This document shows positions 23,454-57,800 of a stretch of 64,000 nt of DNA, piece by piece; the stretch's first letter is position 1; each line of letters begins with the position of its first letter. The notes under the pieces were generated by a model that worked only from the letters and a program-made list of their open reading frames with translations, had not been told where the DNA came from and made no database searches. Location: the NCBI RefSeq assembly GCF_002591915.1, contig NZ_NIHB01000001.1, forward strand, positions 721,805 through 785,804. Direction: 5' to 3'. Made by a program: the position numbers and the translations under genes. The stretch is from Marinicella litoralis. GTDB taxonomy: Bacteria; Pseudomonadota; Gammaproteobacteria; Xanthomonadales; Marinicellaceae.

Positions 23454-24341
23454 TTAATTGGATGGTTTTTGATAAGGTTTAGAGCCATCGGCTTGGATGC
23501 TGAATCTTTTGTATGTCCATTGGTATTGACTTGGGTTGATCGCGACCAGACTGGCTATGGTTTTATTCATGGTAATCACTGATTCATTGACATCATTGTA
23601 AATGGTGTCAGCTGCCAGCTTGAAATGTAAATCAAAACCCTTTCCATCGCTCAATCTTTCGGCCACCGCAAACACCACCGGTACCTTGGTTTTACCCGCA
23701 ATTTTAGCAAACAATGTCATGGTATAAGCCGCTTGTCCCATGAAGGGTGCATATACGCCTTGACCATTTTTGGGTTGTTGATCGGGTAAAATCGCCAGAA
23801 TGTTGTTTTGTTTTAATACTTTGAATATTTTTCTCACACCTTTGGCATCTGCGGTGATTTGGTTGGCGCCGCCAGAGCCACGGTATCTCAACAACAGCTG
23901 TTCAATTTTTTTGTCTTCAGGTGGCTTGTAGAGAAAAGAAAAGCCTTGATGACGGGAAAGCCATAAATTCAAGACCTCCCAGTTGCCGAAATGTGGCACT
24001 GCCATTAACAAACCTTGCTGTTTAGCCAAAGCAGCCTCCAAGACATCCAAACCATGGATGTTGTTGATGAGGGATTCGATGCTATTTTTGTGTTTTTTCC
24101 AAACAACGCCCATTTCAAACATGGATTTGATGGTTTCTTTTAAAGCCTCTTGAGCCAGTTTAATTTGTTCATCCGTGCTCAGCGTTGGGTAACACAGTTT
24201 GATGTTGGTGAGGGTGATGCGCCGTTGTTTTTCAGACCACCGCCAAACCATTTTGCCGATGAATGCTGCCCATTGTTGTGCTGTTTTCAGTTTGAGCCAA
24301 CTGGTGATGTGGATGATGAATTGAAACAAAAATGATCGCAT
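23454..24341 (-). CDS. LpxL/HtrB-family acyltransferase (lipid A-type)
   Basis: A 295-residue membrane-associated acyltransferase. A hydrophobic N-terminus (FLFQFIIHITSWL) precedes the HX4E/D catalytic motif in VPHFGNWEVLNLW (His about 117). The FLYKPPEDKKIEQLL segment and LAILPDQQPKNGQGVYAPFMG are the substrate-binding blocks of the LpxL/LpxM family, which adds secondary acyl chains to lipid A using acyl-ACP. Which position it acylates cannot be read from sequence. It lies downstream of the sRNA terminator and has its own start (ATG at 24341). Confidence 0.88.
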   Translation of the reverse strand: MRSFLFQFIIHITSWLKLKTAQQWAAFIGKMVWRWSEKQRRITLTNIKLCYPTLSTDEQIKLAQEALKETIKSMFEMGVVWKKHKNSIESLINNIHGLDVLEAALAKQQGLLMAVPHFGNWEVLNLWLSRHQGFSFLYKPPEDKKIEQLLLRYRGSGGANQITADAKGVRKIFKVLKQNNILAILPDQQPKNGQGVYAPFMGQAAYTMTLFAKIAGKTKVPVVFAVAERLSDGKGFDLHFKLAADTIYNDVNESVITMNKTIASLVAINPSQYQWTYKRFSIQADGSKPYQKPSN

Positions 24342-24380
24342 GGCAGCTATTTTAATTCATTTCAAATAAATAGTTGGGAC

Positions 24381-24411
24381 AAAAAAAACCGTTGCCAAAA
24401 TGACAACGGTT
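24381..24411 (-). terminator. Rho-independent terminator of the Rsm-type sRNA
   Basis: On the minus strand AACCGTTGTC-ATTT-TGGCAACGGTT forms a stem of about 9 bp, followed by eight T. This defines the 3' end of the sRNA. Confidence 0.88.
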
Positions 24412-24571
24412 AATTTGCGAAGGAACAAACACGATCCTTCCTATCCATGATCCCCGAGAGTGGTACTTCATGTACCTGATTGTTAGTCCTTGTAAGCAAT
24501 CATTTAGAATCAGTTCCCTGATCCTTCCTTAGTGTGCCTCATTGGCTGGTAAATCCAATTACCGTTTCCTT
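24381..24571 (-). ncRNA. RsmY/RsmZ/CsrB-type CsrA-sequestering small RNA
   Basis: An RNA of about 190 nt with ten GGA motifs on the minus strand, seven of them ANGGA. Several GGAs sit in hairpin loops: GGTAATTGGATTTACC (24548-24563), ATCAGGGAACTGAT with a GGAA tetraloop (24509-24522), and CAAGGAC in a TTG-TTA/TAA-CAA stem (24480-24499). A cluster of four GGAs lies between 24430 and 24455. This is the defining pattern of RNAs that titrate CsrA/RsmA. A rho-independent terminator ends it and a GacA-box palindrome lies upstream. No ORF fits the segment. The assignment rests on motif content and context; the exact 5' end is estimated from the -10 box. Family name (RsmY, RsmZ or CsrB) cannot be assigned. 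Confidence 0.85.
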
Positions 24572-24577
24572 GGGGAT

Positions 24578-24610
24578 ATTATGTGATGTGGGCCCAGAAA
24601 AATCTGTCAA
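24578..24610 (-). promoter_or_regulatory. Promoter of the Rsm-type sRNA
   Basis: CATAAT (24578-24583) serves as the -10. TTGACA (24605-24610) is 21 bp upstream, too far for an ordinary -35, so activator dependence is likely. Confidence 0.55.
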
Positions 24611-24626
24611 CAAATTCTGAAAAGCT

Positions 24627-24644
24627 TGTAAGAAATTTCCTACA
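24627..24644 (-). promoter_or_regulatory. GacA (UvrY/LetA) upstream activating box
   Basis: On the minus strand TGTAGG-AAATTT-CTTACA matches the GacA consensus TGTAAG-N6-CTTACA at 11 of 12 fixed positions. It is centred about 64 bp before the predicted sRNA start, where such boxes lie in Pseudomonas rsm genes. Confidence 0.8.
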
Positions 24645-24666
24645 AGCATTCTTCGTAGATGATGTT

Positions 24667-24906
24667 TTAGCTCGATGAATTGGTGGGCTTACTTTCGGCT
24701 TTTTTGGGTTCTTTCGCTGGTTTTTTGGTCTTAAAATCAGTTTCGTACCAACCTGTGCCTTTCAACCTAAACCCGGCAGCCGAAACTTTTTTCACCAATG
24801 AAGGGGCTTCACATTGTGGACAATCACTCAGTGGTGCATCTGACATTTTTTGTAATTTTTCTAATTGGTGGTCACAGTCTTGACACTGGTATTCATAAAT
24901 AGGCAT
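24667..24906 (-). CDS. FmdB-family zinc ribbon protein
   Basis: A 79-residue protein beginning MPIYEYQCQDCDHQLEKLQK, the hallmark of the FmdB/CxxC_CxxC_SSSS putative regulatory family. Two CxxC pairs (CQDC and CPQC) should bind one zinc. The segment VKKVSAAGFRLKGTGWYETDFK is the family's conserved tail, followed by a Lys/Pro/Ser-rich disordered end. The precise function of the family is unknown. The stop lies about 20 bp before the GacA box of the sRNA. Confidence 0.92.
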   Translation of the reverse strand: MPIYEYQCQDCDHQLEKLQKMSDAPLSDCPQCEAPSLVKKVSAAGFRLKGTGWYETDFKTKKPAKEPKKAESKPTNSSS

Positions 24907-54887: not shown

Positions 54888-57800
54888 ATGAAAAATATCA
54901 CTTGGGCCCTGTTGTTAATGCTGGTCATTAATGTTTCAGTGGCAGATGCAAAAGAACCTACAAAAGATGATCCGTTTTCGGGCATTAAACTACGTAGCAT
55001 AGGGCCTGCACTGATGTCGGGTCGGATATCTGATGTCGCCATAGATCCAAACAATGAAAATATCTGGTATGTGGGAGTGGCTTCAGGTGGTGTCTGGAAG
55101 ACTGTCAATTCAGGAACCACATGGGAACCCATTTTCGATAAGCAGCAAGTCTATTCGATTGGTTCTGTCACCTTGGATCCACAAAACAGCAACAGAATTT
55201 GGGTTGGAACCGGTGAAAACGTTGGTGGTCGACACATGAGCTTTGGCGATGGCATATACCTCAGTGAAGATGGCGGTGGAAGTTGGAAAAAAAAGGGTTT
55301 AGAGCAATCTGAGCGCATTTCTACCGTGGTGGTTCACCCTAAAGACAGTAATACCCTTTGGGTTGCTGCGCAAGGGCCTCTGTGGTCAAAAGGTGGGCAG
55401 CGCGGATTATATAAAACCACGGACGGTGGAAAACAGTGGAAAAAGGTATTGGGTGATGATCAATGGACAGGAGCCACTGATGTGGTGATGGATCCACGTA
55501 ACCCCGACCGTTTGTATGCTGCCACTTGGCAAAGACACCGAACAGTGGCTGCTTATATGGGTGGAGGACCTGAAACTGCGATTTATAAAACCGAGGATGG
55601 TGGTGACAATTGGGTTAAATTATCCAATGGATTACCCAAGGGTCCGATGGGCAAGATTGGATTGGCCATTTCACCACAGAAACCAGATGAAATATATGCT
55701 GCCATAGAAGAGCAAAGACGAACTGGAGGAATCTACAAATCATTTGATCAAGGCGCTTCTTGGAACAAGCAGTCTGATGCAGTGTCGGGTGGTACCGGAC
55801 CTCATTATTACCAAGAGCTTTACGCCTCACCGCACCATTATGATTTGCTGTATTTAATGAACAACAGTTTGTTGATCTCTGAAGACGGCGGAAAAAATTA
55901 CAGGTTAATGAATGAAGGCAATAAACATGGGGATAATCATGCAATCGCCTTCAAAGCCAGTGACCCTGATTATGTATTGGCCGGGAGTGATGGTGGACTT
56001 TATGAAAGTTTTGATCTCACCAATACTTGGAAATATGTGGCCAATTTACCCGTCACTCAATTTTATAAAGTGGCAGTTGATGATGCCGAACCCTTTTACC
56101 ATATTTATGGTGGTACCCAGGATAACAACACCCAAGGCGGACCTTCCAGAACTGATAATTTACAGGGCATCAGAAATTCAGATTGGTATGTGGTTCTTTT
56201 TGGTGACGGGCATCAGCCGGCTACTGAGCCAGGTAATCCAGATATTGTCTATGCTGAATGGCAACAAGGTAACTTGGTACGAGTGGATAAAACCAATGGT
56301 GAATTGGTTTACATCCAGCCGCAACCCGATGAAGGCGAGCCAGCTGAACGTTTCAATTGGGACGCGCCCATATTGGTTAGTCCACATGAGCCGACCAGAC
56401 TGTATTTTGCCTCGCAAAGGCTTTGGCGATCAGATGATAGAGGTGACTCATGGCAAGCCATATCAGGTGATTTAACCAAAAACCAAGAGCGCATGCAGTT
56501 ACCCATTATGGGTGGTCAACAAAGTTGGGACATGCCTTGGGATGTTTTGGCCATGAGTAATTACAACACCATTACCTCTATTTCAGAATCACCGCTGCAA
56601 GCCGGGCTGATTTATATTGGTACGGATGATGGCTTGATACAAGTCACGCAAAATGGTGGGGACAACTGGCAATCAATCAAAGTTGGCTCACTACCGGGTG
56701 TCCCGGAGGCCGCATTTGTTAATGACATCAAAGCTGACCTGCATGATGTTAATAAAGTATATATTGCCCTAGATAATCATAAGTATGGAGATTTTAAACC
56801 GTATTTATTGATGAGTAAGAACCAGGGTAAATCTTGGCAAAGTATCAATCAAGGTATTGCAGCAAAGAACTTGGTGTGGCGAATTGTTCAGGATCATATT
56901 GATGCTTCTTTGCTGTTTGCGGGCACCGAGTTCGGTTTGTACGTAAGCCAAAACTCAGGAAAGAATTGGTCTAAGCTTGATGGTGGCATGCCGACCATAG
57001 CTGTTCGAGACTTGGCCATTCAACAAAGAGAAAACGACCTGGTTGCTGCGACTTTTGGCCGTGGATTTTATGTGTTAGATGATTACAGTTTTATGCGTCA
57101 TGTCAATTTTTCTCAAGCCAAAGGTGCGCAACTGTTCCCCGTTAAAACAGCACTGTGGTATTTGCCCAGGGTGGTGTTGGGCTTCAATGAAAAAGCATCG
57201 CAAGGTGATGCCTTTTACAATGCAAAAAATCCACCATTTGGTGCGGTGTTTAATTACTACTTGGCAGATGAGTTGAAAACAGCCAAAGCCAAAAGAAAAG
57301 CAAAGGAAGAACAATTGCTTAAAAAAGGCGAAGATGTCTCATTTCCAGGTTGGGCTGCTATTGATGCTGAGAATCAAGAACCAGCAGCAAAAATTTGGCT
57401 CACTGTGAAAAATGATGCTGGCAAAGTGGTTCGCAGGGTCGAAGGTACCGATGATAAAGGATTTAATCAGGTTGCATGGAACTTGCGTTATCCTGCTTTT
57501 GGTGTTTTAGGTAAAGGTGGTGGTTTCTTTTCAGATGAACCGCAGGGAATGATGGTGGCACCAGGGAAGTACCAGGTATCACTCAGCCAAGAAGTCAATG
57601 GTGTCATCACTCAATTGTCGGACCCTCAAGAATTTGAAGTTGAAAGCTTGAGACCTGGTGCGTTGAAAGGGGCAGAGCCAGAAGAAGTGGTGGGTTTTTG
57701 GAAACAACTTTCTGCCGTACAAGATGAAGTGGCTGTGACCAATACCATCCTGGCTGAGGCATTAAAGCGTTCCGAACAAATTCAAATGGCATTGAAGAAC

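Follow-up and report, generated by a model that had tools for sequence, protein, structure and literature searches.

The GacA site is given as TGTAAG-N6-CTTACA in PMC4950607, which locates the P. aeruginosa palindrome at -75 for rsmY and at -196 for rsmZ. In E. coli, according to PMC4682653, UvrY binds an inverted repeat at csrB, TGTGAGAGATCTCTTACA, that is centred at -183/-182. Sequestration requires several GGA motifs, as described in PMC2375449. A review of the cascade (PMC7366521) gives several sponge RNAs for Pseudomonas or Vibrio and, for Lysobacter, LadS and RetS alongside GacS and GacA. RsmA-type RNAs were predicted in PMC5568370, the main text of which names neither Marinicella, Lysobacter nor Xanthomon. 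Our literature search for Marinicella with CsrA or small RNA retrieved nothing relevant, and the matches for Marinicella and small RNA concern microbial communities, judging by their listing.

We analysed a stretch of 64,000 nucleotides (the window) from a 3.35-Mb genome in 21 contigs, which is placed in the genus Marinicella (Gammaproteobacteria, Lysobacterales, Marinicellaceae). Its minus strand carries a locus that we read, with high confidence, as a GacA-activated, CsrA-sequestering RNA of the Gac/Rsm (BarA/UvrY-Csr) cascade in Marinicellaceae. As far as sequence can tell, our data support the same reading in the preliminary description of the locus, and the sRNA very probably adds a new example, specific to the family, to a well-known kind of control circuit. 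The elements of the locus and its neighbours are compiled in the table.

Table. Elements of the predicted sRNA locus and neighbouring genes (positions refer to the window).
Feature	Position	Strand	Remarks
Small RNA, ~190 nt (predicted)	24381..24572	minus	5' end deduced from the position of the -10; covariance model R1 match 24381-24577
Putative GacA/UvrY-type palindrome TGTAGG-AAATTT-CTTACA	24627..24644	minus	18 bp; TGTAGGAAATTTCTTACA
-10 element CATAAT	24578..24583	minus	43 nt past the palindrome
TTGACA-like element	24605..24610	minus	21 nt from the -10
Hairpin GGUAAUUGGAUUUACC, loop with GGA (24554-24556)	24548..24563	minus	MFE fold
Hairpin GGAUCAGGGAACUGAUUC, loop with GGA (24515-24517)	24507..24524	minus	MFE fold
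Hairpin UGAUUGCUUACAAGGACUAACAAUCA, loop with GGA (24487-24489), stem covaries	24477..24502	minus	MFE fold
Hairpin GGUACAUGAAGUACC, loop without GGA in the window	24462..24476	minus	
Rho-independent terminator AACCGTTGTCATTTTGGCAACGGTTTTTTTT	24381..24411	minus	
Upstream neighbour, FmdB-family zinc-ribbon protein	24667..24906	minus	context
Downstream neighbour, LpxL-like lipid A / lysophospholipid acyltransferase family protein	23454..24341	minus	context

The preliminary description had counted ten GGA motifs on the minus strand, at least three of them inside hairpin loops, and had placed a rho-independent terminator at 24381-24411; all three statements hold. Between 24579 and 24383 (197 nt) there are 10 GGA, 5 of which are fully unpaired in the MFE fold, 3 of these in clear hairpin loops, and the terminator lies where it had been placed. 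The predicted RNA has several GGA that are unpaired or in hairpin loops, a property of the CsrA-sequestering class. Ten is also the maximum among all 127,608 segments of 197 nt on both strands of the window. It is reached by 67 segments, 63 at the sRNA locus (24373-24631, minus) and 4 at 55401-55600 (plus), the latter inside a 1087-aa frame. Dinucleotide shuffles of the stretch attained 10 GGA in 9 of 2000 cases (mean 5.5) and mononucleotide shuffles in 0 of 2000; given the former, the GGA density by itself is just moderately unusual. The fold has an energy of -64.3 kcal/mol (z -4.67), and equal stability was seen in none of 200 shuffles.

A comparison with the Rfam models for RsmY, RsmZ and CsrB, proposed in the preliminary description, returned no match. 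Neither the window nor seven related loci reached the gathering score for CsrB, CsrC, RsmX, RsmY or RsmZ, and up to E 10 the region 24340-24670 yielded only chance-level PyrR, Hrs1, mir-451 (twice) and DLEU2_6. The sRNA thus falls outside the catalogued RsmY/RsmZ/CsrB sequence families. With RsmX, RsmY and RsmZ of Pseudomonas it shares unpaired GGA motifs, an upstream 18-bp GacA palindrome and a CsrA-family protein in the genome, but it differs in the missing Rfam match, the box centre at about -64, the half-site TGTAGG and the single copy found. It resembles CsrB and CsrC of E. coli in being, by prediction, a CsrA-sequestering RNA with a UvrY-type inverted repeat, whereas the csrB repeat lies at -183/-182 and the Rfam match is again missing. 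Its predicted length is about half that of CsrB. The circuit logic is also that of Legionella RsmY/RsmZ under LetA/LetS (PMC7366521, table); unlike there, no Rfam match was obtained, and the best kinase candidate of the genome reaches 278 with the LetS model, whose cut-off is 1650.

To follow the RNA through related genomes, we employed sequence patterns, BLAST and covariance models. A degenerate pattern of the conserved 3' part retrieved 15 records, 10 of which match the RNA model: Marinicella marina, M. sediminis, M. pacifica, M. gelatinilytica, four uncultured Marinicella, one 'Lysobacterales bacterium' and one 'Proteobacteria bacterium'. The pattern matches in Segetibacter, Spirosoma, two Clostridia and Bacillus gave no RNA-model match and were taken as chance. 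BLAST with the locus detected 15 of 61 genomes, its own included; the three BLAST matches in genus g3 are palindrome matches beside other genes. Covariance model R1, built on 12 sequences, matched 17 of 121 genomes, namely 15 of the 18 of the genus and 2 in the sister genus g4. With model R2, the count at E 0.1 rose to 28 of 33 family genomes, the matches in genus g3 being weak; eleven R2 loci that were fetched (ten from g3, one from the genus) all share one anatomy, as judged by eye. Under strict filters, model R3, trained on 28 sequences, matched 29 of 33 Marinicellaceae genomes and 0 of 365 other genomes of the order (398 in total). Genome G032 lay outside the R3 training set, which included its close relatives, and was matched at E 2.5e-10. 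The four family genomes without an R3 match are three drafts in 300-470 contigs (G014, G015, G024) and G018, which comprises two contigs and is 100% complete. One copy was found, in a search that could miss an unrelated second sponge RNA.

The RNA structure is conserved. In alignment A5 (28 rows, 3 opposite-strand partial matches left out), 92.7% of 939 cells are paired, and double-sided changes occur in 26 of 38 pairs and 176 cells, compared with 19.0 pairs and 56.1 cells in shuffles and no more than 49 double-changed cells in slid structures; A5, like A3, was fitted to the structure, so that these pair counts lean towards it. For A1, a sequence-only alignment of 12 sequences, RNAalifold showed 15 of 38 pairs to have double changes. 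The RNA and its GGA motifs are conserved family-wide, with compensatory base changes. Among the 24 of 28 loci with a placeable promoter, 94 of 204 GGA are fully unpaired in MFE folds (43.7 expected) and 21 loci have at least 8 GGA; the sequences are related, and hence these counts are not independent. Loci L054 and L095 have only 3 GGA each, which counts against a sponge. Several relatives, among them L004 and L007 with GGUACAGGAGUACC, do carry a GGA in the loop of the hairpin that corresponds to 24462-24476.

Upstream of the RNA, we confirmed the 18-bp palindrome at 24627-24644, a TGTAAG-N6-CTTACA-type element ahead of a promoter as known from GacA/UvrY targets. Its centre lies ~64 bp from the presumed RNA start, a distance calculated from the inferred start and in line with the preliminary description. 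The half-sites show a single change from the canonical form, TGTAGG for TGTAAG, and the palindrome is consistent with both the GacA site of PMC4950607 and the UvrY repeat of PMC4682653. It is the sole zero-mismatch TTGTARGNNNNNNCYTACAA site in the 3.35-Mb genome, where a reversed-pattern control also gave 1. With up to 2 mismatches, we counted 35 sites, this one included, against 53 in the control, i.e. no excess; we do not claim a wider GacA regulon, since sites with 1-2 mismatches are no commoner than in the control.

The locus has a conserved -10 in addition to its terminator, and a sigma-70 scan found no promoter with a spacing of 16-18 and no ordinary -35 there. The TTGACA-like element, conserved as T/G-GAC in 12 aligned genus loci, is separated from the -10 by 21 nt in 11 of these and by 22 nt in one. 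A gap of 21 nt is too long for an ordinary sigma-70 pair, and such a spacing outside the usual range would fit an activator-dependent promoter. A palindrome-like site with at most 6 mismatches, a loose limit, precedes a -10-like hexamer by 42-44 nt in 24 of 28 loci, compared with 0.23 of 28 in shuffled upstream sequences. The preliminary description had let its reading depend on the GGA motifs and the palindrome being kept in close relatives. This was borne out family-wide for the RNA with its GGA motifs, and for the palindrome in part: 15 of 28 loci have at most 2 mismatches to TGTAGGAAATTTCCTACA (0 in shuffled upstream sequences), 9 have 3-6 mismatches with one half decayed, and in 4 no palindrome was found at the usual distance from the -10. 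In genus g3, 7 of the 10 fetched loci have a perfect TGTAGGAAATTTCCTACA, and by eye an extra TTCCTA half-site precedes most of the g3 palindromes. The palindrome of L059 (genus g4) is also perfect and is located further upstream.

The genome contains both protein partners for which a search had been proposed. The 83-aa CsrA scores 114.4 bits (cut-off 73), has 47 of 54 residues in common with a solved CsrA chain and is canonical; its gene lies downstream of an alaS-like frame, by eye. The GacA homologue has 219 aa with a receiver and a LuxR-type domain. Its best model, NF007018, gives 262.3 bits over residues 1-215, followed by 148.8 for the next family; we counted GacA/UvrY as present despite the NCBI cut-off of 280 bits, which this score does not reach. 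No clear GacS/BarA was found in the genome: the best candidate (L026:871-3525) scores 400 with the BarA model against a cut-off of 890, and its sensor half is unmatched. This 884-aa hybrid kinase contains HisKA, HATPase, REC and HPt as well as several membrane segments (by eye), a layout that may resemble RpfC. It is a candidate for the phosphodonor of GacA or, alternatively, for an RpfC-like sensor.

Across the family, a GacA-like protein above 250 bits is present in 30 of 33 genomes (none in G018, G025 and G032), CsrA was found in 26, and sRNA, CsrA and GacA occur together in 22; only G018 has none of the three. The sRNA is present while CsrA was not found in five drafts (G008, G010, G028, G030, G031), and it is present while no GacA orthologue was found in two further drafts, G025 (370 contigs) and G032 (600 contigs). 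G018, 100% complete in two contigs, possibly represents a loss of the sRNA/CsrA/GacA circuit as a block. A link between a missing GacA and decay of the palindrome was considered and dropped: the palindrome is altered in G025 by one extra base between its halves, but perfect in G032.

These observations bear on whether the RNA binds CsrA but is activated by another LuxR-type response regulator with a similar palindrome. We regard this as improbable. In its favour, the half-sites are TGTAGG/CCTACA-like instead of the canonical TGTAAG, the genome encodes similar regulators (17 GacA-model matches at E <=0.001), and such palindromes occur elsewhere in related genomes, perfect in L013, L014, L069 and L070 and with one change in L015. 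The sRNA is moreover kept in G025 and G032, where a GacA orthologue was not found. Both are heavily fragmented drafts, however, and one of them retains the perfect palindrome; the exact 18-bp layout, unique in the genome, and the GacA-like protein in nearly all family genomes likewise argue for GacA as the activator.

Still less probable, and in our view very unlikely, is that the RNA constitutes a 5' leader or attenuator of the LpxL-like acyltransferase gene. The terminator lies 40 nt ahead of the acyltransferase start codon, and this gene is directly downstream in 14 of the 17 loci obtained first (the contig of L016 ends) and in 10 of the 11 fetched next. Against this stand the two loci of the sister genus g4, L057 and L059, where 1.9-3.1 kb of fetched sequence contain no acyltransferase, FmdB or ClpB and where the long mechanical frames nearest the RNA 3' end converge on the RNA from the other strand. 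The downstream acyltransferase is also absent at L091, and in the window, L009, L055 and L058 the gene has a -10-like element of its own just before the ATG. Furthermore, across 28 loci 99% of the cells of the terminator stem are paired. FmdB was not detected at L010, L011 and L012, where the sRNA is kept. Judging from these loci and from the other neighbours in g4, the sRNA is probably neither an acyltransferase leader nor an fmdB 3' product. A chance cluster of GGA in an AT-rich gap with an incidental terminator, for which the dinucleotide shuffles reaching 10 GGA might speak, is refuted by conservation, covariation and promoter geometry in three genera.

For the GacA-activated sponge, we infer transcription, GacA binding, CsrA binding and an effect on targets from the observed sequence elements, conserved RNA structure, promoter geometry, csrA and gacA homologue, and family-wide conservation. 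Phosphorylated GacA would bind the 18-bp palindrome ~64 bp upstream and activate a promoter that has a good -10 and no properly spaced -35. The resulting RNA of ~190 nt would terminate at its own terminator and display up to ten GGA, several in hairpin loops, to bind CsrA dimers. Capture of CsrA by the RNA would, in turn, free the mRNA targets of CsrA.

More tentatively, and with somewhat less than even confidence, the family may have a minimal Gac/Rsm cascade with a single gene each for CsrA, GacA and the sponge RNA and essentially a single GacA site in the whole genome. Its RNA would then have arisen or diverged independently of the sponges of Pseudomonas and the enterobacteria, and in G018 it would have disappeared in one block together with CsrA and GacA. 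Our analysis places a Gac/Rsm-type circuit with an apparently single sponge RNA in a marine Lysobacterales family. Because this RNA family is absent from Rfam, Rfam-based annotation misses the sRNA. A system with a single RNA and a single perfect GacA site could allow the cascade's output to be examined free of the multiple sponge RNAs listed for Pseudomonas or Vibrio.

Palindromes of this kind were also seen in other contexts. Those of L013, L014 and L015 in genus g3 adjoin protein frames, among them a small unnamed frame and, by eye, a phosphoglycerate-mutase-like frame, and the GacA-box-like site may control more than the sRNA in this genus. At L068, in a genome from another family of the order (G036) whose GacA scores above the NCBI cut-off, a perfect palindrome TGTAGGAAGTTTCCTACA lies at ~1500 on the minus strand; counting the box, this and the following sequence contain 9 GGA within 340 nt, overlapped on the opposite strand by a mechanical frame of 205 aa. 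This stretch is a possible unrelated sponge RNA. At L069 (G040; 1500-1722, plus), a perfect palindrome precedes a strong fold (z -3.24) with few GGA and a terminator-like hairpin end, possibly a GacA-controlled RNA.
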